From the IMG/VR virus record IMGVR_UViG_3300045003_000166, positions 1 to 64,000 of that record: DNA of 64,000 nt. One strand, written 5' to 3'. The notes under the pieces are model-generated. The model searched no databases. It saw only the letters and a list, made by a program, of their open reading frames with translations, and was not told the DNA's origin. This DNA is from a virus. Below, one piece after another: positions 11,212 through 63,342 of this stretch; the first letter of the stretch is position 1, and every line of letters starts with the position of its first letter. Position numbers and translations under genes: made by a program.

Positions 11212-11439
11212 CTAAGCCTCCGCCATGGCCTTCGTCAAGGCCTCGTTCTTTGCCCGCAGCGCGCCGAGCTCCCCGCGGGCGTTGTTCAGGGCCGTCTCCA
11301 GCATCGCGTTCTCGTAGGTGAGCTGGGCGACGAGCATCGCGAACTTGCGCTGCAGCGTCTCCACTACCTGGCTCTGGTCGACGGTGACGGGCGGTGCCTC
11401 CTCGGCCGCGCCGTTCTGGACGTCGGTTTCGACGGTCAT
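11212..11439 (-). CDS. small coiled-coil protein
   Basis: 75 residues, acidic, with one long predicted helix from about residue 20 to the end (VVETLQRKFAMLVAQLTYEN, in part). Its start overlaps the stop of the glycosyltransferase gene, so the two are translationally coupled. It could be a partner subunit of the cassette. Function unknown. Confidence 0.55.
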   Translation of the reverse strand: MTVETDVQNGAAEEAPPVTVDQSQVVETLQRKFAMLVAQLTYENAMLETALNNARGELGALRAKNEALTKAMAEA

Positions 11440-12296
11440 GTCAGCTCCCTGGAAAGCGCGCGGTACTGCTCGAGGATGTCGGTGGCCAGCACGGCGTCGC
11501 GCTGGGGGTAGAAGGTGTAGTGCGACACGAGCGCGTCGCCGACGATGACGTTGTCCTTGCCCACCAGCGGCGGCCGGTGCACCGTGATCCAGTGCTCCTC
11601 CTCCGGGTAGTCCAGGACTCCCGGCACGGGCAGCGCGCAGAAGTCCTCCCCGTCGATGACGTGGCAGGACACGGAGAACTGCTGGCGCGGCGCGAGCGGG
11701 AAGTTCTGGTAGAAGAAGACCTCCTCCGGCTTCCCCACGCGCAGGTGTTCGAGTAGCAGGCGGTGGATGCGCACCGCGAACTCACCGTCGCCCCACCCGA
11801 CCGGGTCCATGCAGAACGCGGACTGCACGATCCCGAACTCCCTCGGGATCTTGCCGAGCTTCTGCGCGTACCAGGAGACGATCGCGTTGTTCCACATCAG
11901 GGCGAAGCAGGCGAGCGTGCCAGGCAGCGCGACCTTGGCCTTCACCAGGTTCTCCACCGCGGCTTCGTGCACATACACGATGTCGTCGTCGAAGCGGAAG
12001 AAGACCGCGTCCGCGTCCGTCATGTACCGGTACGCGTAGCCGGTGTTGCGCTGCTTCGGGTAGAGGCGCGGCAGCCCGGCCGGCTTCTCGATAATCTTCA
12101 CCCAGGTGCTGTGCGCCTTCGCCAGTCGGTAGGCGTAGGCGAGGTCGGAGACCTGGTTGTCGTCCGTGTTGAGGTACAGCCAGTACTCGTCGACCAGGCC
12201 GCGCTCGTGGTCACGTCTCAGGTACTCGAACAGAATGTTAACAGTCTGCTCTCGCCCGAAGGGTGTCCACGCCACTACCTTCTTGCCGCCGATCAC
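11436..12296 (-). CDS. glycosyltransferase-like protein
   Basis: 286 residues, GTG start overlapping the upstream stop (GTGA). The N-terminus KKVVAWTPFGRE is followed by a nucleotide-sugar-type fold and an acidic cluster FFRFDDDIVYV near residue 95, the kind of DxD motif that binds the metal and sugar nucleotide in GT-A enzymes. Together with the adjacent GT and epimerase this forms a sugar-transfer cassette next to tail genes. Acceptor unknown; tail proteins are a reasonable candidate. Confidence 0.65.
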   Translation of the reverse strand: MIGGKKVVAWTPFGREQTVNILFEYLRRDHERGLVDEYWLYLNTDDNQVSDLAYAYRLAKAHSTWVKIIEKPAGLPRLYPKQRNTGYAYRYMTDADAVFFRFDDDIVYVHEAAVENLVKAKVALPGTLACFALMWNNAIVSWYAQKLGKIPREFGIVQSAFCMDPVGWGDGEFAVRIHRLLLEHLRVGKPEEVFFYQNFPLAPRQQFSVSCHVIDGEDFCALPVPGVLDYPEEEHWITVHRPPLVGKDNVIVGDALVSHYTFYPQRDAVLATDILEQYRALSRELT

Positions 12297-13282
12297 GCCT
12301 TCTCCTCCCCGAACAGCGCGCTTTCCCAGAGGGGCGCGAGGTTCTCGATCGTGTAGTCCTGGGCGCGCAGCCGGGCCGCGTCGCCCATTTGCTCGCGCAG
12401 GTCCGCGTCGTTCAGCAGCAATCCGAGGTACTCGCCCCACTCCTGGGCGGTGGAGGCGAGGAAACCGGTGACACCGTGCACCACCCAGTCCCGGTACGGG
12501 ACGATGGGCGAGGCGACGATCGGAATGCCGAGGAACGCGGCCTCCAGCGCCTTCGTCGCGCCCTTCGCCTCGTTGTAGGGGGTGGAGCGGTAGGGAGCGG
12601 CCCATACGTCGAAGTCGACCGTGTCCAGATATGCCTCGTTGGGCTGGACCCAGCCGGTGTGCCGCCATCCGGGAGCGGTCAGGCCCAGTTTGCGCAGATG
12701 CGGGTAAGGGATGCCGACCGTGTGCACGACTCCGCCGTGGTCCGGTACGGCCTTGAGTGCCTCGAACGCGATCGGCAGCTCGAACACGGTGGAGGAGGTG
12801 CCCGCCCAGCCGACCACCGGCTTCGGGTTCTCGGGGCGCGGCCGGTCCAGGTACTTCGCGGGCAGGCTGTTGGGGATCACCTGGACGTTGTCGCAGTACT
12901 GCTCCAGGATCATCGCGAGCACGTCGCTGCAGACGGTGACGGCGTCCGCGGCGTAGGCGTTCGCCATGAGGCGGGTGCGCACCGTCGGCTCGGAGAAGAA
13001 CCGGTATGCGACCTCGTTGGTCGAGTCCACGTGCCAGTAGTCGTCATCCGCGTCGAACACCGTGCGCACGCCCGGCGCGTGCACCATCCTCGCCCACTGG
13101 GTGGAGGGCTCCGGCGTGCACACCCGCTGTCCGAGGAACGCGTCGCTGTCCTCGTAGCCCTCGCCGATCCGTTGGCCGGCCTGGACGTCGTGGCCCCGTT
13201 CCCGCAGAGCCTGGGCGACGATCTTGGTCCGGTACCACGAACAGCCGGCGTCGTCCGCCGCCCAGAGCCACGCCTTACCCAC
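12293..13282 (-). CDS. glycosyltransferase, group 1 (GT-B) type
   Basis: 329 residues, GTG start inside the end of the epimerase gene. Visible features: an N-terminal GT-B-like segment (ALRERGHDVQAGQRIGEGY), VFDADDDYW, the linker SDVLAMILEQY..VQVIPNSLP typical of group 1 enzymes, and a C-terminal donor-binding region (VGWAGTSSTVFELP, LEAAFLGIPIVASPIVPYRD). It probably transfers a nucleotide-activated sugar supplied or modified through the neighbouring epimerase. Confidence 0.75.
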   Translation of the reverse strand: MGKAWLWAADDAGCSWYRTKIVAQALRERGHDVQAGQRIGEGYEDSDAFLGQRVCTPEPSTQWARMVHAPGVRTVFDADDDYWHVDSTNEVAYRFFSEPTVRTRLMANAYAADAVTVCSDVLAMILEQYCDNVQVIPNSLPAKYLDRPRPENPKPVVGWAGTSSTVFELPIAFEALKAVPDHGGVVHTVGIPYPHLRKLGLTAPGWRHTGWVQPNEAYLDTVDFDVWAAPYRSTPYNEAKGATKALEAAFLGIPIVASPIVPYRDWVVHGVTGFLASTAQEWGEYLGLLLNDADLREQMGDAARLRAQDYTIENLAPLWESALFGEEKA

Positions 13283-14246
13283 GGGAGGCCAGGTGCCCGG
13301 GCAGCCAGTGCGCGGCGAACCATTCCACCGTGTCGTGGACGCCCAGGCCGAGCGGGACGAGAGCGTCCGGTTCCAGGCCGAGCAGCCGCATCGTCTCGTT
13401 GTCCGCGACCACCCGGGCGCCCGGCGTCTCGCCCGGCCGCATCGGCAGGTGCACCAGCGAGGGCGCGGGGTCGTAGCCGATTTCCCTCGCCTCCTGGATG
13501 ACGAGGTTCGCCACATACGCGACCGTGGCGTGCTCGCTCGGCCCGATCTCGACCACCTGCTCGAGCACGTCGCCCTTCGCGGCGTACTCGAGGGCCTGGA
13601 CCAGGCCGCGCGCCACGTCGGTCACGTAGACGCAGTCGGAGATCTGCTGACCGTCCCCGTACACCTCGATCGGCGTGCCGGTCAGGGCACGGGCGATGAA
13701 CGCGGGCATGATCTTTCGGACCTTGCCCGGCCCGTACGGCGCCGCCATCACCTGCCGCGGCCCGTACGCGTTGACGACGCGCACCTGGTTGAGAGCGAGG
13801 CCGCGGTCCCGCACGAACATGTGGCCAAGGGACTCGACACAGGTCTTGCTTGCCGAATACGGGTTGCTCATCCCGTGGTTGCCGACGCAGATGTTGACGC
13901 ACGGCAGTCCGTATTGGACGCAGGCCTCGAACACGTTCAGACCGGAGGCGACGTTGGTCTGCACCGCGGGCCGCGGGTTGTGCACCGTCTCCTGGGTGCC
14001 GAGCACGGAGGCGAGGTGGATGATCCCGTCCGTGTGTGCGGCCAGCTCGGTGACGGCCACCTCGTCCCGGGTGTCGCCGAGCATCGTCGGGATGTAGGAG
14101 TCGAAATGGCCTGATCCGGGCCGCGATTCGACGGGATGACGCTTGGAGCGGTGGTCGAAGATGACGGGCTCGTGGCCGCGCTTGAGCAGTTCGTCGACGA
14201 CGTGTCCGCCGATGAATCCGGCGCCGCCGGTGACACCGATGCGCAT
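13275..14246 (-). CDS. NAD-dependent epimerase/dehydratase (extended SDR)
   Basis: 323 residues. The N-terminal VTGGAGFIGGHVVDEL is the GxxGxxG NAD-binding motif. HLASVLGTQ and a YSASKTCVE catalytic Tyr-x3-Lys follow near residue 125-150. The C-terminal region fits nucleotide-sugar binding. Closest in pattern to UDP-glucose 4-epimerase or dTDP-sugar dehydratases. An SD-like CCGGAG lies about 5 bases before ATG. It heads the leftward sugar cassette. Confidence 0.85.
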   Translation of the reverse strand: MRIGVTGGAGFIGGHVVDELLKRGHEPVIFDHRSKRHPVESRPGSGHFDSYIPTMLGDTRDEVAVTELAAHTDGIIHLASVLGTQETVHNPRPAVQTNVASGLNVFEACVQYGLPCVNICVGNHGMSNPYSASKTCVESLGHMFVRDRGLALNQVRVVNAYGPRQVMAAPYGPGKVRKIMPAFIARALTGTPIEVYGDGQQISDCVYVTDVARGLVQALEYAAKGDVLEQVVEIGPSEHATVAYVANLVIQEAREIGYDPAPSLVHLPMRPGETPGARVVADNETMRLLGLEPDALVPLGLGVHDTVEWFAAHWLPGHLASRG

Positions 14247-15942: not shown

Positions 15943-16737
15943 TCAGGCAGCTGCGGCGACGATCTCGGCCATCGACAGGTCAGCCTTGAAGGTGTGACCC
16001 ACTAACCGCTCAACCGCCAGGTACTCCTGCGCCATGGCCGGGTTGAGACGCGCGGACAGAACGAGCTCCGTACGCCCGGCCAGGACACAGAACATGCACG
16101 ACAAGCGCGGCATCCCGGCGTCGTAAGCCGGGTGGTACGGAAGGCCAGAGCGGCGGATCGTGTCCCAGACCTGCTCCTCTGACCAGTCGAAGATGGGCAG
16201 CCAGCGATCCACGATCCGACGCCCGTTCGTCGCCGCGGCGTCGGGGCCGAAGGGGATCTTCTTGGCGCGCGCCGGAGACTCGGCCGCCCTGATGCCCAGG
16301 CAGTTCAGGATCCTGATCGGGCGGTCCGGGTGTGCGGCGCGGTGGTCGGCGGCCAGTTTCGTCATGATCTTGGCGACCTGGCTGGTCTTCTGATCGGAAG
16401 TGCAGTACCTGGCCTGGCTGGACGGCCATGCCGGAGTCGTGGTGTCGCCCTTCGCCCGGAGGGTGTTGTGGCGCGTCACGACCTGGTCGAGCAGGTCTTC
16501 GGAACGAGCGACGGTCTCGAACCGCAGGCCGTATACCGCGGCCTGCTTCTCGGCAAGTTCGCGCGTTCCCTCCCACTCCACCCGGCCGAGGTCGGCGTGG
16601 ACCACGACGATCCGGTCGCGGGAGACGCCCTCAGCGTCGGCGCGCTCGACTAGGTGGGTGAGCATCGCCTGAGAGTCCTTGCCTGCGCTGGAGTTGATGA
16701 GGATCACGTCGTAGGAAGCGAGGTTCACGGTGGACAT
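15943..16737 (-). CDS. PAPS reductase-like (adenine nucleotide alpha hydrolase) protein
   Basis: 264 residues. The PP-loop LINSSAGKDSQAML lies at residues 11-24. VVVHADLGRVEWEGT, RYCTSDQKTSQ and CLGIRAAESPAR follow in the order expected for the PAPS reductase/DndC superfamily. It ends in PRLSCMFCVLAG with two cysteines. In phages such proteins are common and may activate nucleotides or take part in sulphur modification; the true substrate is unknown. Upstream genes are co-oriented. Confidence 0.75.
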   Translation of the reverse strand: MSTVNLASYDVILINSSAGKDSQAMLTHLVERADAEGVSRDRIVVVHADLGRVEWEGTRELAEKQAAVYGLRFETVARSEDLLDQVVTRHNTLRAKGDTTTPAWPSSQARYCTSDQKTSQVAKIMTKLAADHRAAHPDRPIRILNCLGIRAAESPARAKKIPFGPDAAATNGRRIVDRWLPIFDWSEEQVWDTIRRSGLPYHPAYDAGMPRLSCMFCVLAGRTELVLSARLNPAMAQEYLAVERLVGHTFKADLSMAEIVAAAA

Positions 16738-17114: not shown

Positions 17115-17163
17115 GTGACTATCTGTCAAAGAGGAGTCTGCCGGTCGTGTGACTATCTGTCAA
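17115..17163 (-). promoter_or_regulatory. tandem pair of phage promoter/operator elements
   Basis: Two identical leftward copies of TTGACAGATAGTCAC at 17149-17163 and 17115-17129. The upstream copy gives -35 TTGACA with a 17-base spacer to CAGACT. The downstream copy lies between that promoter and the start codon, close to the SD, and probably acts only as an operator. Confidence 0.7.
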
Positions 17164-17537: not shown

Positions 17538-17797
17538 CAGAACTTCACCAGCTGCGTGCTCGAGTACCCCTGGCCGAAGCCGTCCCCGTCGCCCGTCCAC
17601 TCGACGATCGGGTGCTGGACGTCGCTCGAGAACGGGTCCATGTGCACACCCGTCACCACGCCCTCCTGGCCCGAGAGCCGGTGCCTCACCCCGTCACCCA
17701 CCTGGATGGGCGCCTGCGGCGCGGTCTGGGGCGGCGTGTAGGCCGGGTTGCCGGAGCGGTCCCCGGGCGGCTGGTCGGTTGCTACCTTCAGCGTCAC
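17537..17797 (-). CDS. small SH3/KOW-like barrel protein
   Basis: 86 residues. A proline/threonine/glutamine-rich N-terminus precedes VGDGVRHRLSGQEGVVTGVH and HPIVEWTGDG. The pattern G-D-x-V-x-H..G..G-V-V-x-G, then a V-x-W strand, is a small SH3/KOW-type barrel. At least five other small proteins in this genome share it (17794, 22187, 26523, 49942, 60994). It overlaps its neighbour's start. Confidence 0.55.
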   Translation of the reverse strand: MTLKVATDQPPGDRSGNPAYTPPQTAPQAPIQVGDGVRHRLSGQEGVVTGVHMDPFSSDVQHPIVEWTGDGDGFGQGYSSTQLVKF

Positions 17798-18201
17798 CGC
17801 AGCCTCCTGGGCGCGTCCGAGACGGCGTTCTGCGTGCCGGCGTAGAGGCCTTCCGGCGTGACCCCGGCCGGCCTAATCGAGTTGGGCGCGACGCCCTGGG
17901 CGAGGGAGGCGTCCTCTCCCGCGAACGCGACGCGCGGCGTGATCCGAGTGGTGTGCGGGTCGCGGTGGTGGCCGACCACCGTCCCCTCCCCCAGGGCGCG
18001 GTGCACGACCCGGGAGCCGACTGCTGGGGTCGGATCGGCGCCGTGCTGGTCCTGGTTCATCTCGGCCGCCCCGCGCGGGTGGTAGGCCTGGTTGAGGGCG
18101 AGCTCCTGGGGGATCGTCGCGCCCAGGTTCAGGCCGCCGGTGGACGGCGCGCCGTCGCCCTGGCTCTGGTACGGGCCGCCGCCCTGGAACTGGGCTCTCA
18201 T
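17794..18201 (-). CDS. SH3/KOW-like small protein, leaderless start
   Basis: 135 residues from ATG 18201. Residues 60-105 contain VGSRVVHRALGEGTVVGHHR and RVAFAGED, the same barrel pattern as the neighbour at 17537. The first 50 residues are G/Q/P-rich and probably disordered. TACACT lies 7 bases before ATG with no SD, matching the start of the paralogue at 49942 (TACACT, then 7 bases). That indicates a leaderless mRNA. First gene of the leftward operon. Confidence 0.6.
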   Translation of the reverse strand: MRAQFQGGGPYQSQGDGAPSTGGLNLGATIPQELALNQAYHPRGAAEMNQDQHGADPTPAVGSRVVHRALGEGTVVGHHRDPHTTRITPRVAFAGEDASLAQGVAPNSIRPAGVTPEGLYAGTQNAVSDAPRRLR

Positions 18202-18236
18202 GTCAACCAGTGTACGTATGAGTCCTGGAAAGGGAA

Positions 18237-18269
18237 CCGCCCCGGACGCGTTCCGTGCGTCCGGGGCGG
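18237..18269. terminator. hairpin terminator
   Basis: CCGCCCCGGACGC and GCGTCCGGGGCGG form a perfect 13-bp stem with a 7-base loop. It separates the tRNA/Ro transcription unit from the next leftward operon. Confidence 0.65.
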
Positions 18270-18401
18270 TGAGGCTTGAGCGGATCCCGTGCCCGTGTCC
18301 GCGCGACTGCTCCGGTGTCGCGTCCACCATCACAGTCGGTTATCCGGGCGCAGTTGCCGGGATTAGTCTGCAGCCGTACCCGACCAGCTTGCGCCTCCGC
18401 G

Positions 18402-18475
18402 TGGCAGGGAGCGGATTTGAACCGCCGACCTCTGGGTTATGAGCCCAGCGAGCTACCGAACTGCTCCACCCTGCT
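18402..18475 (-). tRNA. initiator-type tRNA-fMet (CAT)
   Basis: Full 74-nt cloverleaf without encoded CCA. The anticodon arm is CTGGG-CTCATAA-CCCAG, so it has the three G:C pairs of initiator tRNAs. The first acceptor pair is unpaired (A1, C72). The D stem GAGC/GCTC has A11:U24. All three are initiator hallmarks and differ from elongator tRNA-Met. T arm is GGCGG-TTCAAAT-CCGCT. It is the last RNA of the leftward Ro/tRNA unit. The call is from base pairing by eye. Confidence 0.85.
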
Positions 18476-18526
18476 CTGTGAGCCGGATTGCCGCCCCCGG
18501 CTCTACTCGCCCATACACCTCAGCAC

Positions 18527-18544
18527 AGCCCGTCTTCACGGGCT
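18527..18544. terminator. small hairpin between the small protein gene and tRNA-fMet
   Basis: AGCCCGT and ACGGGCT pair around CTTC (7-bp stem, tetraloop). It could be a processing signal or weak terminator. No T tract. Confidence 0.35.
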
Positions 18545-18583
18545 TACCTAGCGAGCCCCACTCAAGAGCTTACCTCACACGAC

Positions 18584-18797: not shown

Positions 18798-20453
18798 CTA
18801 CCCGCGCAGGAAGCCGGAAACGAGCTGAGGCAGGCTGGCGTCGAAACCCGCCACCTGCAGCACGCCCTCGTCCCGCGGGTCCGCGATCGTGTGCCCGGCC
18901 GCGGTCATCGACGCGACGATCAGTCGGGCGTTCGGGTTCCTCGCCGACCGGTACGAGCGCAGTGCCTGGGAGGGGTGCATCTTGCCCGCCCAGGTCTCGT
19001 TGTCGGTCAGGACCAGGAAGCCGTCCGCCACGACGCCCGCTCGCTGCGCCCATGAGAAGGGGAGCGAGAGGTCGGTGCCGCCCCCGGACGGACGCCACGA
19101 CTGGATCTCGCGCAGACTGGTGCGCGCCGTGAGCCGGGAGGCGTGGACACTGGTGTCGACGTCGATGACCTGGACGTTGCCCTTCTCGATCCGGGCCGTG
19201 GTCAGCGCCATGCCGTTCGCGACCTCGTACACGCTGCCCAGCGGCGAACCGCCGAGCGTCATGTGGCTGCTCATCGAGCCGGACGAGTCGACCGCGATCA
19301 CCAGCTTCCTTCCCGACGGCTCGACGTGGCCGAAGGAGAGCTCGAACGCCTCCTCCAGCGCGTCGGAGACGGCGGTGATCGGCGACCAGGTGCGCAGCTT
19401 CGCCTTCGGGTTGGGCTGCGCGGACCCTGAGTTGTAGACCTTCAGGGCGAGGTAGAGGTCCAGCGGGTGGACGCGCGCCTTCGCCAGGGCGCCCGAGTCC
19501 GTCAGCCGCTTCGCCACGTCGCTGACCGAGGATCCCAGCGGGGTGAGGGCGCCGATCCTCGTCATCCGGGCCAGGTTGCGGATCAGGGCCGTCAGGCCCA
19601 CTGTGTGCGCCAGCTCCGCCCAGACCTCCGGCGAGTCCAGCACGCCGTCGTCCAGGAACTCCCACGGCACGCGCAGCGTACGTACGGCTGTCACGGCCTC
19701 GGCCGGACGGGTCACCGACTTGGCGATCCGGTACTTCTCGACGCTCGGCAGCAGCGCGCCCGCCTCCGCCTCGGTGACGGTGCCGGCGAGCCAGCCGAAC
19801 AGCGCCCGGTACGCGGGATCTTCGACGTGCGGCTTCGCGAGCCGGAGCATGTCCTTGAGGGCGAACGGCTCGCCGGAGCCGGTCTTGCGCGCCTTCGCCT
19901 TACACGCCCGGAACGCGACCCGGTCCGCCTCGTCGGACAGGAACCAGTCAGTCAGGGCGGTGCGCATCAGCCGGTTCATCACCGGCTTCGTCCCGCGCCC
20001 CGACGGCTTGCCGCGCAGGTTCTTGTAGTAGCCCCAGAAGTGCGCCAGGTGGTCCGTGGTCCTCGCCACCCGGGGAAGCGCGGCGCGCGCCGCCCGGCGC
20101 GTGTCCAGGTCGCCGGTCGCGACCGCGGCGGCGAGCACGAACAGGGCCGGGAAGTTCTTCGGCGCGCGGGCCGGCTGCGCGGCACTGATCTGGGTGGCCA
20201 GGGCGACCGCGCGCACACCGTCGGCGGTGATCGCGTCGAACACGACCTTCGCGCCCGCGTAGGTGTGCTCCTTCTCCCCCACGTAGTAGGTGCCGCCCGT
20301 GGTGCCGAGGATGACGAAGTCCTCGAGCTTCGTCCACACGTCCTTGGCGAAGGTGAATCCGCCTGCCGAGTTGCGGACCATGTCAGCCTCGCGGCCCAGG
20401 ATCGGCTCGCTCTGCGGCGTACGCACGGTACTGATCGCGGACAGTGCGTCCAT
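18798..20453 (-). CDS. rsr: Ro60/TROVE-domain RNA-binding protein
   Basis: 551 residues, about the length of bacterial Ro (Rsr). Residues 1-370 are the helical TROVE repeats (NSAGGFTFAKDVWTKLEDF, RTTDHLAHFWGYYKNLRG, in part). The C-terminal third is a von Willebrand A domain with a full MIDAS: AVDSSGSMS near residue 385, GGGTDLS, and LTDNETWAG. Bacterial Ro proteins bind Y RNAs and misfolded RNAs and steer exonucleases. Four structured RNAs, three with tRNA-like parts, lie directly upstream on the same strand, as expected for Y RNA genes. Transcribed from the promoter at 21141-21170. Confidence 0.9.
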   Translation of the reverse strand: MDALSAISTVRTPQSEPILGREADMVRNSAGGFTFAKDVWTKLEDFVILGTTGGTYYVGEKEHTYAGAKVVFDAITADGVRAVALATQISAAQPARAPKNFPALFVLAAAVATGDLDTRRAARAALPRVARTTDHLAHFWGYYKNLRGKPSGRGTKPVMNRLMRTALTDWFLSDEADRVAFRACKAKARKTGSGEPFALKDMLRLAKPHVEDPAYRALFGWLAGTVTEAEAGALLPSVEKYRIAKSVTRPAEAVTAVRTLRVPWEFLDDGVLDSPEVWAELAHTVGLTALIRNLARMTRIGALTPLGSSVSDVAKRLTDSGALAKARVHPLDLYLALKVYNSGSAQPNPKAKLRTWSPITAVSDALEEAFELSFGHVEPSGRKLVIAVDSSGSMSSHMTLGGSPLGSVYEVANGMALTTARIEKGNVQVIDVDTSVHASRLTARTSLREIQSWRPSGGGTDLSLPFSWAQRAGVVADGFLVLTDNETWAGKMHPSQALRSYRSARNPNARLIVASMTAAGHTIADPRDEGVLQVAGFDASLPQLVSGFLRG

Positions 20454-20534: not shown

Positions 20535-20668
20535 AGGCGGATGTGGGAGTGAAGACCGGGTTTAAGCGTCTTAGGCCGCTGGACCACCGGACCGGGGAAA
20601 GGCCCGGGCAGGATTCGAACCTGCATCTCTCCTTTGGAAGAGGTAACCGATCTGCGTTCAACCCGCCC
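20535..20668 (-). ncRNA. permuted tRNA-Gly(TCC)-containing Y RNA-like unit
   Basis: Closing helix GGGCGG/CCGCCT, then GTTGAAC, then a second helix AGATCGG/CCGGTCT. Inside, the 3' part of a tRNA (anticodon CTTCCAA, V loop, T arm GCAGG-TTCGAAT-CCTGC, acceptor CCGGGCC, T73; 20600-20643) comes first. A 6-base loop follows, then the 5' part (acceptor GGTCCGG, D arm; 20565-20593). Rejoined, they give a tRNA with a perfect acceptor and a perfect anticodon stem CTCCT/AGGAG. U73 fits tRNA-Gly. Ends are inferred from pairing. Confidence 0.65.
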
Positions 20669-20722
20669 GAATTCGTGCTGGTGCCGACCCGTTCGCCTTC
20701 ACCGTGCGCGCGGGGCGGCGGA

Positions 20723-20856
20723 CCGGACGGATGTGGATTTTGGAACCGGGGGAAGTGCTGCCGCTACACCACAGAACCCGTTTCCGGATCCCGGCGGGAT
20801 TCGAACCCGCGCCTTATCTTTACGAGAGATAACCGATCCCTGTTCAACCCGTCCGG
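20723..20856 (-). ncRNA. permuted tRNA-Thr(CGT)-containing Y RNA-like unit
   Basis: Closing helix CCGGACGG/CCGTCCGG, GTTGAAC, second helix GGGATCGG/CCGGTTCC. Inside, in order: anticodon arm TATCT-CTCGTAA-AGATA, T arm GCGGG-TTCGAAT-CCCGC, acceptor 3' strand CGGGATC (20786-20831), a 7-base loop, then acceptor 5' strand GGTTCTG and a D arm GTGT/GCAC (from 20778 downward). The acceptor has three G-U pairs and C73 is not the usual Thr discriminator. The 3'-half-before-5'-half order is clear. Confidence 0.65.
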
Positions 20857-20914
20857 GTTGCCGTGCTGGTGGTGCTCAAAACCCGGACCCTGAGGGAACC
20901 GGGTGGTGCAAGGT

Positions 20915-21050
20915 GTCCGGATGTGGAGTCGACCACCGGTGTTAAGCGCTCTGCCAATTGAGCTACCGACCTGTTTTACCAGCTCGGGCGGGACTTGAAC
21001 CCGCAACCACTCTCTTAACAGGAGATAACCGACGGTCTTTCAACCCGGAC
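20915..21050 (-). ncRNA. permuted tRNA-Asn(GTT)-containing Y RNA-like unit
   Basis: Closing helix GTCCGG/CCGGAC, GTTGAAA, then a 10-bp helix GACCGTCGGT/ACCGGTGGTC. The enclosed 3' part has anticodon loop CTGTTAA, V loop TGGTT, T arm GCGGG-TTCAAGT-CCCGC, acceptor CCGAGCT and G73 (20980-21025). A linker GTAAAAC follows, then the 5' part with acceptor AGGTCGG and D arm GCTC/GAGC (20945-20972). Rejoined, it is a 73-base tRNA-Asn with the G73 expected for Asn and one G-G mismatch in the acceptor. Confidence 0.7.
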
Positions 21051-21140: not shown

Positions 21141-21170
21141 ACGCTACAGGGCGGCGTGACTATCCGTCAA
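21141..21170 (-). promoter_or_regulatory. phage promoter/operator driving the RNA array and Ro gene
   Basis: Leftward TTGACGGATAGTCAC at 21156-21170 with -35 TTGACG, an 18-base spacer and -10 TAGCGT (21141-21146). Predicted start about 21134, where the first structured RNA begins. It overlaps the 3' end of the upstream gene, where it encodes LTDSH. Confidence 0.75.
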
Positions 21171-38054: not shown

Positions 38055-38154
38055 CGGCCACAGCGGGAGTCGAACCCGCTTTACGACGTCCAAAGAGATC
38101 GGTCGAAAACGCCTGTGTCGCACTCCCAGCGCCAGGAGTGTCCGGACCATGGCC
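38055..38154 (-). ncRNA. tRNA-like structured leader, anticodon not assigned
   Basis: A perfect T arm GCGGG-TTCGACT-CCCGC is followed by TGTGGCC, which pairs with GGCCATG 100 bases away (two G-U pairs). A hairpin CACTCC/GGAGTG and an arm CGAC/GTCG lie in between. No standard D arm or anticodon loop could be placed. It is the first RNA downstream of the promoter at 38190-38219. It may be a degenerate or long-arm tRNA, a Y RNA-like RNA, or an att-related tRNA fragment. Confidence 0.45.
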
Positions 38155-39467: not shown

Positions 39468-39746
39468 TCACGCCTCCCGGATCTTCGCGGCGTGGCAGGT
39501 CCGGCACACCGGGACCGGCTTGCCGAACAGCGTCTTACTCGGCACCTCGCGCACGACGCCGTCCGCGCGCCAGCCCTCGCACAGGTGAGGCTCGTAGACC
39601 GGGCAGAGGCAACAACATGCGGCGTCGGCCGGGATCCTCGTCAGCGCCAGTTGGGCGGTGACCGCAGCCATGCGCTTCAGCGCACCGGCCGCCGCGTCCA
39701 CGCTCTCCCGGAACGCCTCCGGGTCGAAGGGCTTGTCAGTCGTCAC
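39468..39746 (-). CDS. small zinc-binding hypothetical protein
   Basis: 92 residues. Helical first half, then CCCLCPVYEPHLCEGW and VPVCRTCHAAKI: several cysteines suitable for zinc. Ends in a basic helix. Last gene of the integrase operon. Function unknown. Confidence 0.55.
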   Translation of the reverse strand: MTTDKPFDPEAFRESVDAAAGALKRMAAVTAQLALTRIPADAACCCLCPVYEPHLCEGWRADGVVREVPSKTLFGKPVPVCRTCHAAKIREA

Positions 39747-39939
39747 CGCGCTGCATCTCCCTGAACGCCTCCACCAGCTCCTCCACCGCGCTGATCGTGG
39801 CGGAGAGAGCGGCGGCCAGCAACCCTTCCTCGTGGCCCGCGCACCGGCCGTTCAACTGGTGCCACCCGTCCAGCTCCGCCAGGCTGTCCTTCGCCTTTTC
39901 CAACTGCTCGGTCGGCATCATCGTGTCGTAGTGCGCCAC
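39736..39939 (-). CDS. small helical hypothetical protein
   Basis: 67 residues from GTG 39939 with GGAGG six bases upstream. Reads VAHYDTMMPTEQLEKAKDSL and ends VEELVEAFREMQRGDD. It overlaps, in a different frame, the last 200 bases of the integrase reading frame, which has no stop there. The strong SD argues that this frame is the real one in the shared region. Confidence 0.55.
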   Translation of the reverse strand: MAHYDTMMPTEQLEKAKDSLAELDGWHQLNGRCAGHEEGLLAAALSATISAVEELVEAFREMQRGDD

Positions 39940-41134
39940 CAGTCTCCTCCCTCCTGACACGCGCCAGCGCGTCCCGGCCCGCGGCCAGGTCCTCGGGCCG
40001 CGCGTGCACGTAGTTGTCGTAGGTGAAACTCGCCTTCGTGTGCCCCATCCACGCCGCGATCACATGGCCCTGCACACCGGCCCGGGCCATCCGGGAGCCG
40101 GCCGCGTGGCGCATCGCCTCGTACGGCGTCACCTTGCGCACCCCGGCCTGGTCCATCAGCCGGTACATGTAGCGGCGCAGCCGCTGCGTGTCGAACGGGG
40201 CGCCCAGTTGATCGGCCAGCACGTAGCCGCCCTGCGGGTCCAGGAACCAGGCGTCGCCCGCGTTCTCCCGCTCCGCCTCCTGGACGCGTCGCCACTCGCG
40301 CAGCGCGTCGGTGAGTGCTTCGTCCAGGGGGAGGATGCGGATTCCGGCCGGGGTCTTCGCCTCCTTCTCCACCGGCTTGCCCTTCACCATGGTGCGCACG
40401 ATCATCCCCACCGCCACATTGCGGGCGATCAGGTGCACGTGCGGCCAGCGCAGCCCGCACAACTCCTCCGGGCGAAGGGCGCGGGCGAACAGCTCCACCA
40501 GCGCGGCCAGCCGGTCCTGCGCGGCGCACGCGAAGAAGCGCTCCTCCTCGGCGTCGCTCCACAGGTCGTGCACCGGCTTGCTCCGCTTCGGCCGCTGCAC
40601 GAGCCGGACCGGGTTGTAACCGATGCGCCGCTCGGCCACTGCCACATCCAGGGCCGTCTGTAGCTGCGCCAGCGTCTTGGAGATCGACGTGGGCCCGTGT
40701 CCGCGCCCGTACTTCTTCGACACGCTGCGGGCGCGTCCCTGCGTCTCCATCCACACGACCAGCTTGTCGAACTCGGCCTTGTCCAGTTCCTGCAGCGGGC
40801 GCGTGCCCATGAACCGGCGCACCGGGGCGAGGAGGTTCCGGTAGGTGTTGAGAGTCGCCGCTTCCTTCCCCCGCAGTCCCGCCTCCCAGGCGTCCAGCTC
40901 CTCGTTGAGCGTCCGCTTGGAGGGAAGGACGATCATGCCGGTGTTGATCTCGTGCCGGATGCGGGCGAGCTCGGCGCGCGCCTCCTTCAGCGTGTCCCAG
41001 GTGGAGGTGTCCTGGTTGCGCTTGCCCGGCTGCGCCGGGTCCGGGGGCAGGTCGACGACGAGCCGGTACCGGACGGTCTTGCCGTCCGCCAGCTTGATCC
41101 TGCGGATCGGCTCCTTGCCCGCCTTCGCCACCAC
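39743..41134 (-). CDS. int: tyrosine recombinase integrase
   Basis: 463 residues as open. Arm-type/core N-terminal domains to residue 175 (TLNEELDAWEAGLRGKEA), catalytic domain with ALRPEELCGLRW (Arg I), a Lys-containing beta region, TPYEAMRHAAGSRMARAG (H-x-x-R), AAWMGHTK and SFTYDNYVHA (Tyr). After LARVRREE the last 65 residues are arginine/glycine-rich and overlap another gene, so the functional protein probably ends near residue 395. Integrates the phage; divergent from the excisionase. Confidence 0.9.
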   Translation of the reverse strand: MVAKAGKEPIRRIKLADGKTVRYRLVVDLPPDPAQPGKRNQDTSTWDTLKEARAELARIRHEINTGMIVLPSKRTLNEELDAWEAGLRGKEAATLNTYRNLLAPVRRFMGTRPLQELDKAEFDKLVVWMETQGRARSVSKKYGRGHGPTSISKTLAQLQTALDVAVAERRIGYNPVRLVQRPKRSKPVHDLWSDAEEERFFACAAQDRLAALVELFARALRPEELCGLRWPHVHLIARNVAVGMIVRTMVKGKPVEKEAKTPAGIRILPLDEALTDALREWRRVQEAERENAGDAWFLDPQGGYVLADQLGAPFDTQRLRRYMYRLMDQAGVRKVTPYEAMRHAAGSRMARAGVQGHVIAAWMGHTKASFTYDNYVHARPEDLAAGRDALARVRREETGGALRHDDADRAVGKGEGQPGGAGRVAPVERPVRGPRGRVAGRRSLRHDQRGGGAGGGVQGDAAR

Positions 41135-41155: not shown

Positions 41156-41185
41156 TTGACAGATAGTCACGCCGCTGTCCACACT
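41156..41185 (+). promoter_or_regulatory. phage promoter/operator of the excisionase gene
   Basis: TTGACAGATAGTCAC at 41156-41170, 18-base spacer, weak -10 CACACT at 41180-41185. Located between divergent int and xis, so a repressor here would keep excision off during lysogeny. Confidence 0.65.
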
Positions 41186-48844: not shown

Positions 48845-48873
48845 AGTATCGGGCTTACGTGACTATCCGTCAA
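48845..48873 (-). promoter_or_regulatory. phage promoter/operator of the accessory operon
   Basis: Leftward TTGACGGATAGTCAC at 48859-48873, 17-base spacer, -10 GATACT at 48845-48850. Drives the operon that begins at 48805. Confidence 0.75.
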
Positions 48874-58978: not shown

Positions 58979-59082
58979 CGGCTCGGCACCCGACAGGCGC
59001 TCGGGGGTTCGCCTGTGCAACAACGGGCGCCGGTTACGCGCTCGACGCCGCAGCGTTGCCAAATACCGACGGCGGAGCGCGG

Positions 59083-59156
59083 TCCCGGGAACAGGATTTG
59101 AACCTGTGACCAGGGCTTGATAAGAGCCCCGCTCTACCTGGCTGAGCTACCCCGGG
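59083..59156 (-). tRNA. tRNA-Ile (anticodon TAT)
   Basis: Complete 74-nt cloverleaf: acceptor CCCGGGG/TCCCGGG, D stem GCTC/GAGC, anticodon arm GGGCT-CTTATCA-AGCCC, T arm ACAGG-TTCAAAT-CCTGT, A73. The anticodon reads TAT, which would decode ATA, a rare codon in a GC-rich host. C at position 37 is unusual. CCA is not encoded. Driven by the promoter at 59202-59231. Confidence 0.8.
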
Positions 59157-59201: not shown

Positions 59202-59231
59202 ATGATGCGCAGACACGTGACTATCTGTCAA
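59202..59231 (-). promoter_or_regulatory. phage promoter/operator of tRNA-Ile
   Basis: Leftward TTGACAGATAGTCAC at 59217-59231, 18-base spacer, -10 CATCAT at 59202-59207. Confidence 0.7.
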
Positions 59232-61216: not shown

Positions 61217-61435
61217 ATGACGATGAGCAAGCCCGCCCGGGCGACGGTGAAGCCGACCGCGCACGGGTACCCGGCCGTGAAGAAGGCACGCGCCGTACCC
61301 GCCATGCGCACCGACGCGCTCGGCCGGGCGAAGGCGAAGGCCCCGATGGGTGGTTCGCCCGCCGACCACGTGGTCGCCCCGCCGATCGCCGCGCGCACCG
61401 TGGACAGCAAGACCATGGGCAAGCGCCTGAAGTGA
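61217..61435 (+). CDS. small basic hypothetical protein
   Basis: 72 residues, basic and alanine/proline-rich, probably disordered (KPTAHGYPAVKKARAVPAMR). Overlaps the MuF gene by four bases. No family recognised. Confidence 0.5.
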   Translation: MTMSKPARATVKPTAHGYPAVKKARAVPAMRTDALGRAKAKAPMGGSPADHVVAPPIAARTVDSKTMGKRLK

Positions 61436-63342
61436 GCACGGACCCGGGCCAGGGATCGGGCGCGCCCGATTCCTTCGGCCCGGTCACCGACGCCGTCTTC
61501 GCAGCCACCGCCGCCTACACCGCCGACCTGGCCGCGCTGGAGGACCAGGCCGCGGCGGTTGCCGCGGGCCCTCTGCGCAACGGAGTCGCCGAGTTGTTGC
61601 GGCGCCTGACAGCCCTGTACGCGCGCTTGGCCGGATCACTTGACGCCCCGCTGCCCGTGTCCGCCGTCCCGCAGCTGCAGCAGGAGACCGCCGCGGCGCT
61701 GAACGCATTGCGCGCCCTCGACCCGACGCAGGCGATCGCCGACTCCGCCTCACAGGCCTACCACCGCGCCGCGGCGTTCGGGCAAGAGCAGGTGGGCGCG
61801 GTCGCCGTCGACCAGCTGCCCGGCGCGCAGGCGGACGGCGCGCTCATCCAGGCCCTCGACGACATCGCCGGCACATTCTCCTCCCGGATCGACGAGGCCC
61901 AGCAGATCGCGCAGACGGTCGCAACCCTCGACTACCAATCCGCTGTCCTGGACACCGCGGCGAAGGCGGGCCAGGCGGCCGGCCGGGCGGAGGCCGCGGC
62001 CCGCTGGTCGGTGAACCGCGGCGGCAACGCCGGGATGCGCGACGTCGCCCGGCAGCGCGGCAGCTTCCTGCTCTGGGTGGGCGAGCCGACCGCGTGCCTG
62101 GCGTGTGTCGCGTACGTCGGCCACTTCGTCGTCCCCGGCCAGTCGTTCCCGATCGGGCTGACGTGGGGCGACAAGCCTCTGACGCCGTGGCCGGACCCGG
62201 ATGTGCTCGACGGTCCGCCGCTGCACGCGAACTGCCTACCTGGAGACGCCCTCGTAACGTCCCGTAGTCGAATTACGGGTGCGACCTCTCGGGTATACAA
62301 CGGTGAGCTCGTCGAAATCAGAACTCTGGCAAACAAAGTCTTCACCGCTACCCCCAACCATCCGGTATTGACGGACCGCGGTTGGGTCGCGCTCGGCTGC
62401 CTCGATAAGGGAAGCCACGTGGTCGGCACCCTCGGCAGTGAAGGGGTAGTGCTTCGAGACCAGAATGATCACCACGTGCCAACCCGCATCAAGCAGGTAG
62501 CGGAAGCGTTTTTGGGCTCGGGCCACGTGGTCTCCCGAGAAGTGCCAGTGGCCGCCGAAGACTTCCACGGCGACGGTACCGGTAGCGAGGTCGCAGTTGT
62601 AGGGACCAATCGCCTTTTGCGGCGTGGTCTCGATCCCTCGCTCCGAAAGCACCCTGCGGAGATGGTGCTCGAGCGGGCTGGAGTGCGATTGCCGTCGTTC
62701 TCTCGTCCTCGCGCTGCGGAGCAGTTCACCCTCAGTCCTCTTTCGTCCGCGGACTGCAGCATGGGCCGCTTCCGCCAGACGAGCACGCTCGAGAGCGGGA
62801 GTCTGAGCCATGCGTACGTACATGGCTTCACTACGCCCTCGGGGTTCGACTCCTTGTTCCAGCAGGAAGCGATGGATTGTCCGTCGGCTGACTCCGCTGA
62901 CTTCGGCCAGTGCCTTCTCGCTGGTTCCAGTGGCGTAGAGCTCGATCAGGTCATCAGCGTTCGCCGGTACCCATTTTCGGGACATGTCTACAACCTTGAG
63001 ACGGAGGCAGGATGGTACATCAGCAATGGAATTGTAACCCATAACTGCCGGTGTGAGCTGATCACCTGGCTGGGGCCGGCCGCCCTGCACCCGGTGGACA
63101 CCGCGATCTACCACCGGCCCGAGCTGCAGGGGAACGTCGACCTGGCCGCGGCGATGCGCCGGGAGGCGAAGCGCGCCGTCCTGCGCGGCTGGTCGCTGCC
63201 CAGCGAGTCGGAGGCGGTGCGGCTGCGCGGAGCCGAGCGGCTGCTGCGCGCCGGGTCCGGACTGCCGAAGACGGTGGAGGCGCGGGCCCGCAAGGCGGTC
63301 AAGGACAGGCACTTCCCCGATCGCCGTCATGTCAATATCTGA
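61432..63342 (+). CDS. MuF-like head morphogenesis protein interrupted by an intein
   Basis: 636 codons, GTG start. Exteins: residues 1-267 and 539-636. The N-extein is helical, then ARWSVNRGGNAGMRDVARQR, LLWVGEPTACLACVAYVGHF and PPLHAN. The C-extein begins CRCELITW. Splicing would restore the H-x-NCRC motif of MuF-type minor head proteins. The spliced protein has 365 residues. Expected in the prohead close to the portal, before the scaffold gene. If splicing fails the conserved motif stays broken. Confidence 0.85.
   Translation: MSTDPGQGSGAPDSFGPVTDAVFAATAAYTADLAALEDQAAAVAAGPLRNGVAELLRRLTALYARLAGSLDAPLPVSAVPQLQQETAAALNALRALDPTQAIADSASQAYHRAAAFGQEQVGAVAVDQLPGAQADGALIQALDDIAGTFSSRIDEAQQIAQTVATLDYQSAVLDTAAKAGQAAGRAEAAARWSVNRGGNAGMRDVARQRGSFLLWVGEPTACLACVAYVGHFVVPGQSFPIGLTWGDKPLTPWPDPDVLDGPPLHANCLPGDALVTSRSRITGATSRVYNGELVEIRTLANKVFTATPNHPVLTDRGWVALGCLDKGSHVVGTLGSEGVVLRDQNDHHVPTRIKQVAEAFLGSGHVVSREVPVAAEDFHGDGTGSEVAVVGTNRLLRRGLDPSLRKHPAEMVLERAGVRLPSFSRPRAAEQFTLSPLSSADCSMGRFRQTSTLESGSLSHAYVHGFTTPSGFDSLFQQEAMDCPSADSADFGQCLLAGSSGVELDQVISVRRYPFSGHVYNLETEAGWYISNGIVTHNCRCELITWLGPAALHPVDTAIYHRPELQGNVDLAAAMRREAKRAVLRGWSLPSESEAVRLRGAERLLRAGSGLPKTVEARARKAVKDRHFPDRRHVNI
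62233..63045 (+). mobile_element. intein with antisense endonuclease gene
   Basis: 271 residues. Block A: CLPGDALVTS, Cys1 at 62233. Block B: VFTATPNHPVLTDRGWV with the TxxH of Hint domains. Block F: YPFSGHVYNLETEAGWYISN. Block G: GIVTHN, followed by Cys+1 at 63046. No LAGLIDADG or HNH motif is in the sense frame. The middle is antisense to a Vsr/EDxHD-like endonuclease gene. The segment is visibly less GC-rich than the flanking exteins, consistent with recent arrival. Confidence 0.88.
62236..62985 (-). CDS. Vsr-like (EDxHD/DUF559-type) homing endonuclease, antisense in intein
   Basis: 249 residues from ATG 62985 with AAGG eight bases upstream. Residues 10-48 are a HTH (LIELYATGTSEKALAEVSGV). 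Residues 104-180 fit the Vsr/PD-(D/E)XK fold: SPLEHHLRRVL (Glu106), IGPYNCDLATGTVAVEVFGG (Asp132, Glu141), HWHFSGDH. The stop TAG abuts the intein's first codon, so 750 of 813 intein bases are read on both strands with codons in register. Probably spreads the intein. Confidence 0.8.
   Translation of the reverse strand: MSRKWVPANADDLIELYATGTSEKALAEVSGVSRRTIHRFLLEQGVEPRGRSEAMYVRMAQTPALERARLAEAAHAAVRGRKRTEGELLRSARTRERRQSHSSPLEHHLRRVLSERGIETTPQKAIGPYNCDLATGTVAVEVFGGHWHFSGDHVARAQKRFRYLLDAGWHVVIILVSKHYPFTAEGADHVASLIEAAERDPTAVRQYRMVGGSGEDFVCQSSDFDELTVVYPRGRTRNSTTGRYEGVSR

Follow-up and report, generated by a model that had tools for sequence, protein, structure and literature searches.

The DNA analysed here, referred to as the window, comprises bases 1-64000 of a viral record of 72,563 bases and has a G+C content of 68%. 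Its minus strand carries, in order, a TTGACRGATAGTCAC motif, a Y-RNA-like array of three units and one shortened unit, a Ro60 gene, a leader, a tRNA gene and a terminator-like hairpin. These features and the gene that follows them are listed below in minus-strand order, with L126 and L127 denoting two related phages.

21156-21170, minus strand: the TTGACRGATAGTCAC promoter/operator-like motif ahead of the Y-RNA-like/Ro60/tRNA unit, present at the corresponding place in L126 and L127
21068-21131, minus strand: shortened Y-RNA-like copy with the shared ends and without the inner domain
20926-21032, minus strand: Y-RNA-like (YrlA-like) copy 1, RF02553 at 40.8 bits (E 6e-7), short of the gathering score (69)
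20727-20852, minus strand: Y-RNA-like copy 2, with the shared ends GGGTTGAA...CACATCCG read from the sequence
20537-20668, minus strand: Y-RNA-like copy 3, with the shared ends and a weak RF02553 match (20.4 bits)
18798-20453, minus strand: Ro60/TROVE protein gene (551 aa), PF25045 E 1.6e-42, PF05731 E 8e-19, phrog_850
18476-18559, minus strand: folded leader of 84 nt that abuts the tRNA 5′ end, with three compensated pair changes relative to L126
18402-18475, minus strand: initiator-type tRNA-Met(CAU) with an A1·C72 mismatch and A73, CCA not encoded
18229-18269, minus strand: intrinsic-terminator-like hairpin CCGCCCCGGACGC..GCGTCCGGGGCGG-TTCCCTTT after the tRNA, read from the sequence
17794-18201, minus strand: next gene, a leaderless candidate with TACACT-N7-ATG, in which TAC[ATC]CTGGTTGACATG is kept in L126 and L127

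The tRNA was called as tRNA-Met(CAT) at 18401-18475 on the minus strand by ARAGORN, and at exactly 18402-18475 by Rfam RF00005 (62.4 bits). Its sequence (5′-AGCAGGGTGGAGCAGTTCGGTAGCTCGCTGGGCTCATAACCCAGAGGTCGGCGGTTCAAATCCGCTCCCTGCCA-3′) is full-length without an encoded CCA. In the drawn cloverleaf, 1:72 is an unpaired A·C, and positions 29-31 (GGG) pair with positions 39-41 (CCC) beside a CUCAUAA loop, so that GGGCUCAUAACCC contains three consecutive G:C pairs adjoining the loop together with the CAU anticodon. Position 11:24 is A:U, a purine-pyrimidine pair where host elongators have C:G. All three initiator hallmarks named in the preliminary description were therefore seen, and the formylation determinants G2:C71 and C3:G70 and the methionine discriminator A73 are present as well. 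Then, two covariance models were built, one from initiators (mostly of hosts) and one from host elongator Met/Ile2 tRNAs. The window tRNA scored 96.6 bits (E 3e-21) with the initiator model (R1), two of whose nine training sequences came from viral contigs yet are host-like (C1), versus 64.5 bits with the elongator Met/Ile2 model, which strongly supports the initiator class proposed earlier. The control L259, an elongator-type CAU tRNA that is the second CAU tRNA of L126, scored the opposite way (57.4 bits as initiator and 77.7 bits as elongator), indicating that the model pair separates the two classes. Elongator or Ile2 identity was ruled out by the model scores and the C11:G24 pair of elongators, and a chance cloverleaf by the score and E value obtained with the initiator model.

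The closest relative by Ro60 (75% identity), L126, carries an initiator-type tRNA in the corresponding slot, and the order, slot, promoter motif and terminator all match those of the window. The two tRNAs differ at eight positions, which form four double, fully compensated pairs (28:44, 29:43, 51:65 and 52:64, column numbers), and A1·C72, A11:U24 and the GGG/CCC run are unchanged. Relative to a host initiator, the window tRNA shows three compensated pairs and the replacement of one 1:72 mismatch by another. Across 11 aligned phage and host initiators, some of them picked for A1·C72 so that the 1:72 count describes this set rather than a random sample, 1:72 is never a standard pair and 12 other pairs change on both sides, a result reached in 0 of 500 shuffles. 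In addition, the tRNA plus leader (18401-18559) is 88% identical to L126, versus 78% for the Ro60 region. Judged by these substitution patterns, compensatory evolution has preserved the initiator determinants along the phage lineage, and the tRNA is under selection. Together, the hallmarks, the model scores and the compensatory changes strongly support the view that the window tRNA is a genuine bacterial-type initiator, and charging with methionine, formylation, IF2 binding and function in the P site are predicted for it. These compensatory changes, the retained 1:72 mismatch and the high identity to L126 at the tRNA and leader also make it very improbable that the gene is a non-functional passenger taken from a host tRNA locus, a reading with which the 45-nt core shared with host initiators (see below) would agree.

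The core, which runs from the D arm to the variable region (GGTGGAGC...GGTCG), is matched exactly by at least 120 host stretches, and nearly all of these among the matches listed are Actinobacteria by record title. The comparison with host tRNA-fMet suggested by the preliminary description thus revealed an identical D arm, anticodon arm and variable region and the same determinants in actinobacterial initiators. The two differ in the T stem and at 4:69, where the changes are compensated, and at 1:72, since the sampled host copies have C1·U72 or C1·A72. Specifically, among 148 host copies with the identical core, 1:72 is C·U in 92, C·A in 56 and A·C in none. When 197 genomes of the class were searched with a pattern demanding A1, only C1 copies were matched, each through the single mismatch allowed. 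Among 55 distinct phage initiator-type sequences, 43 are mismatched at 1:72 and eight carry A·C, including those of Myrna, Phabba, BeanWater and L126; the window provides a ninth. The A1·C72 mismatch therefore looks phage-typical, and the data suggest that phages vary a mismatch that is always C·U or C·A in the hosts sampled. The tRNA core, together with Streptomyces phage terminases at ~46-48% identity, points to Actinomycetes as the probable host of the phage. The possibility that the gene is an attP relic of a host tRNA was ruled out, as the tRNA is complete and most window-host differences fall in its 3′ half, the part expected to be common to the host and an attP copy.

Initiator-type tRNAs were also sought in other phages. 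A 15-mer from the anticodon arm of the initiator has exact matches in at least 119 stretches of the viral collection, and a BLAST-similar place was found in 272 of 50,697 phage records. Some metagenome contigs could contain host DNA, an explanation that does not apply to isolated phages, and initiator-scoring tRNAs were found in isolated phages of Mycobacterium, Gordonia, Streptomyces, Nocardia, Caulobacter, Aeromonas and Stenotrophomonas. Both the 15-mer count and the isolated phages of these seven genera show that the earlier statement that phage tRNAs are nearly always elongators was too strong. One isolated phage record (Stenotrophomonas phage vB_Sm_QDWS359) is annotated with tRNA-fMet. 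In the open-access literature searched, the coverage of which is incomplete so that absence is weak evidence, no study centred on phage initiator tRNAs was found. By these sequence comparisons, phage initiator-type tRNAs recur widely, usually labelled simply tRNA-Met, and the window case is unusual and not wholly new. The data suggest that many of the phage genes labelled 'tRNA-Met' encode initiators not recognised as such.

The gene upstream of the leader encodes a Ro60 protein with both the TROVE and the Ro60 vWA domains (PF05731 and PF25045) above cut-off, and Ro60 matches were found in 344 phage records. The RNAs beside it adjoin the Ro60 gene and carry tRNA-like modules, as bacterial Y RNAs do, with a T-arm-like hairpin ahead of a D-arm-like hairpin as read from the sequence. 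Their RF02553 scores stay below the gathering score in the window and also in L126 (50.7 bits) and L127 (40.0 bits), and therefore they are called Y-RNA-like only. ARAGORN reported a 'tRNA-Thr(CGT)' at 20786-20859, overlapping copy 2 and with a tRNA score of only 25.6 bits, and a 'tRNA-Gly(TCC)' at 20599-20674, overlapping copy 3; both are probably modules of the Y-RNA-like RNAs, not real tRNAs. The leader folds better than shuffled sequences in both the window and L126 (z about -3 each), and its three compensated changes, coming from two sequences, are only suggestive of a conserved fold. No convincing Rfam match was obtained for the leader of either phage. The idea that it represents a widespread family was rejected, as an exact 17-mer matched only the contig of L126 itself and one unrelated phage family, in which no tRNA follows.

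The TTGACRGATAGTCAC motif occurs in 14 copies in the window versus 0.03 expected. The dispersed copies (e.g., 17115-17163, 41156-41170 and 48859-48873) combine a −35-like box with an adjoining operator-like sequence, and together the copies look like a phage-wide promoter/operator set. A similar terminator-like hairpin lies at the corresponding place in L126 and L127. The order, the spacing, the conserved promoter motif and the terminator indicate that the whole unit is probably one operon, suggesting that a single transcription unit can combine Ro60 with Y-RNA-like RNAs and an initiator tRNA.

The slot itself appears to be variable. L127, a sister phage whose Ro60 is 75% identical, carries a tRNA-Ser(CGA)-like gene at this position and lacks the leader, which implies that the tRNA slot is exchangeable. 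The L127 gene (L127:5782-5860) scores 37 bits and has a very short D loop and an initiator-like 5′ half; it may be a chimaera of two tRNAs. On the window side, the leader and tRNA resemble those of L126, but the minus-strand segment that follows the tRNA (18290-18401) is conserved with L127 and differs from L126; this switch in similarity has the look of a recombination junction situated at the tRNA. The segment shared with L127 showed no excess folding (z 0.0 and 0.9). These observations can be extended to a speculative proposal, which we rate as rather improbable, that the Y-RNA-like/Ro60/tRNA block is a swappable counter-defence or tRNA-salvage cassette. The slot would then hold whichever isotype is under attack (the initiator in two phages, the Ser(CGA)-like tRNA in the third), and A1·C72 would make the initiator hard to detect for enzymes, of the host or of a defence system, that target the acceptor end of the host initiator, yet formyltransferase and IF2 would accept it.

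The start signals of the window were analysed on 117 genes called by a simple script. An SD-like motif precedes 64 of them (55%), versus 12% at internal ATG/GTG codons, and 46 start with GTG. A −10-like hexamer (TANNNT) at leaderless spacing was found for four of the 42 genes able to head a transcript, versus 0.1% at internal codons; two of the four share TACACTGNTTGACATG, and one of these two sits just after the tRNA unit and keeps the spacing in all three phages. The window thus contains some leaderless candidates, but few, two of them convincing, so that the many leaderless genes mentioned in the preliminary description did not hold up. These numbers bear on a general dosage effect, in which an extra initiator would raise initiation or alter start choice (GTG, leaderless) during late synthesis with no link to defence or damage. 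The GTG starts and the conserved leaderless candidate after the unit are in keeping with such an effect, but the frequency of SD-like motifs, the scarcity of leaderless-looking genes and the neighbourhood of Ro60 and Y-RNA-like RNAs instead of late structural genes argue against it, and we regard it as unlikely. That the initiator would favour phage translation, as was proposed earlier, is plausible.

The usual explanation of phage tRNAs, codon compensation, does not readily apply to an initiator. Since an initiator tRNA does not decode internal AUG codons, codon supply is an unlikely reason for carrying it. The only other convincing tRNA of the window is an Ile(UAU) tRNA at 59081-59156 on the minus strand, preceded by a TTGACAGATAGTCAC motif (59217-59231). 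AUA, the codon that it would read, accounts for two of the 21,316 codons of the called genes; being nearly absent, it leaves codon compensation without explanatory power for this tRNA either. Elsewhere in the window, the minus strand carries two glycosyltransferase-like genes, a nucleotide-sugar epimerase and a PAPS-reductase-like gene (11436-14246 and 15943-16737), and the plus strand a head-protein-like ORF (61432-63342) with a weak intein splicing domain match at residues 280-538.

We favour, with moderate confidence, the interpretation that the phage initiator tRNA supplements or replaces host fMet-tRNA during infection and is co-transcribed with the Y-RNA-like/Ro60 unit. The phage-wide promoter would drive the unit with the initiator tRNA as its last product, host RNase P would cut out the tRNA and the host would add CCA; host MetRS would charge it, host formyltransferase would formylate it and IF2 would load it. 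None of the methionyl-tRNA formyltransferase, deformylase, MetRS or CCA-adding families was found among the genes scanned with Pfam, which implies that the phage tRNA would rely on host enzymes. It would fill in when the host fMet-tRNA pool is limiting or damaged, for example by tRNA-cleaving or tRNA-modifying defences or toxins. In bacteria, Ro60 and Y RNAs have been linked to RNA degradation and to operons that damaged tRNA switches on, and the neighbourhood of the window tRNA fits such a setting, with a shared role being attractive though without proof. VapC cleaves initiator tRNA, according to papers cited by PMC10264068, and a tRNA (tRNA-fMet) that the nuclease targets at the anticodon itself is reported to be generally avoided by phages (PMC10264068). 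The window tRNA and the host initiator have the same anticodon arm, so the phage copy is unlikely to resist a nuclease that attacks this arm and could then only replenish the pool. It may act by such replenishment, or alternatively by evading something that recognises the acceptor end. The Ser(CGA)-like tRNA of L127 implies that the initiator is not indispensable to the lineage.

Another explanation would be tRNA-dependent lysogeny, in which the phage integrates into the host fMet gene without rebuilding it and its own initiator keeps the lysogen alive. This mechanism has been proven in other actinobacteriophages with elongator tRNAs (PMC10865867), and the window encodes a tyrosine integrase (39743-41131, PF00589 E 7e-18) that is 62% identical to the integrase of L126. 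As in the phages Fionnbharth, LeBron and Gaia, a tRNA and a tyrosine integrase thus occur together and the isotype varies among relatives; L127 carries another isotype, and close relatives in the published work use different tRNA targets and tRNAs (PMC10865867). Unlike the listed cases, which concern the Lys, Ile2 and Leu isotypes (PMC10865867), the window yielded no attP core to fMet: for a host assigned at the level of Actinomycetes, and with cores that can be as short as 8 bp (PMC10865867), no fMet-gene match of at least 10 bases was found near the integrase except a generic T-arm 10-mer (38079) and one match inside the integrase gene. The two phages share 31 identical bp near the integrase, and this sequence looks like the 3′ end of another tRNA or tmRNA, not like that of fMet. 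Moreover, the tRNA lies 21 kb from the integrase, and several sampled host genomes have two to three initiator gene copies. Lysogeny of this kind is therefore considered improbable. The 31 bp (in L126's phage on L300, near base 20-50) belong to a stretch of ~100 nt at 38055-38154 on the minus strand, between GGCCATGG and a tRNA-like 3′ end AAGCGGGTTCGACTCCCGCTGTGGCCG, whose T arm matches tmRNA weakly. This stretch is possibly a tRNA-like RNA or attP; an exact search of 394 genomes of the class with a 27-mer taken from it gave no match.

This phage, which has just two convincing tRNAs, including an initiator under selection, offers a clean test case for distinguishing tRNA-targeting defence, lysogeny and the take-over of initiation. 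Among known systems, the cluster C mycobacteriophages Myrna, Phabba and BeanWater resemble the window in having a 'tRNA-Met' with CAU, A1·C72 and A11:U24, which scores higher with the initiator model (87.6-90.1 bits) than with the elongator model (67.7-70.1 bits), and BeanWater likewise encodes Ro60. In these phages the tRNA lies within a tRNA array, ~35 kb from Ro60 in BeanWater, and the GGG/CCC run is only partly retained in Myrna and Phabba, whereas the window tRNA, one of only two convincing tRNAs, ends a Y-RNA-like/Ro60 unit. In vB_Sm_QDWS359, the initiator-type tRNA adjoins tRNA-Ile; unlike the window tRNA, it has C1·A72, and neither Ro60 nor a Y RNA lies beside it in the stretch examined. 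The Salmonella rsr-yrlBA-rtcBA RNA-repair operon (rsr-yrl-rtcBA), which responds to tRNA damage (PMC7790460), likewise combines a Ro60 orthologue with Y RNAs. The window unit differs from it in that no RtcB/RtcA family was found among the genes scanned and in that a tRNA gene stands at the end of the unit.
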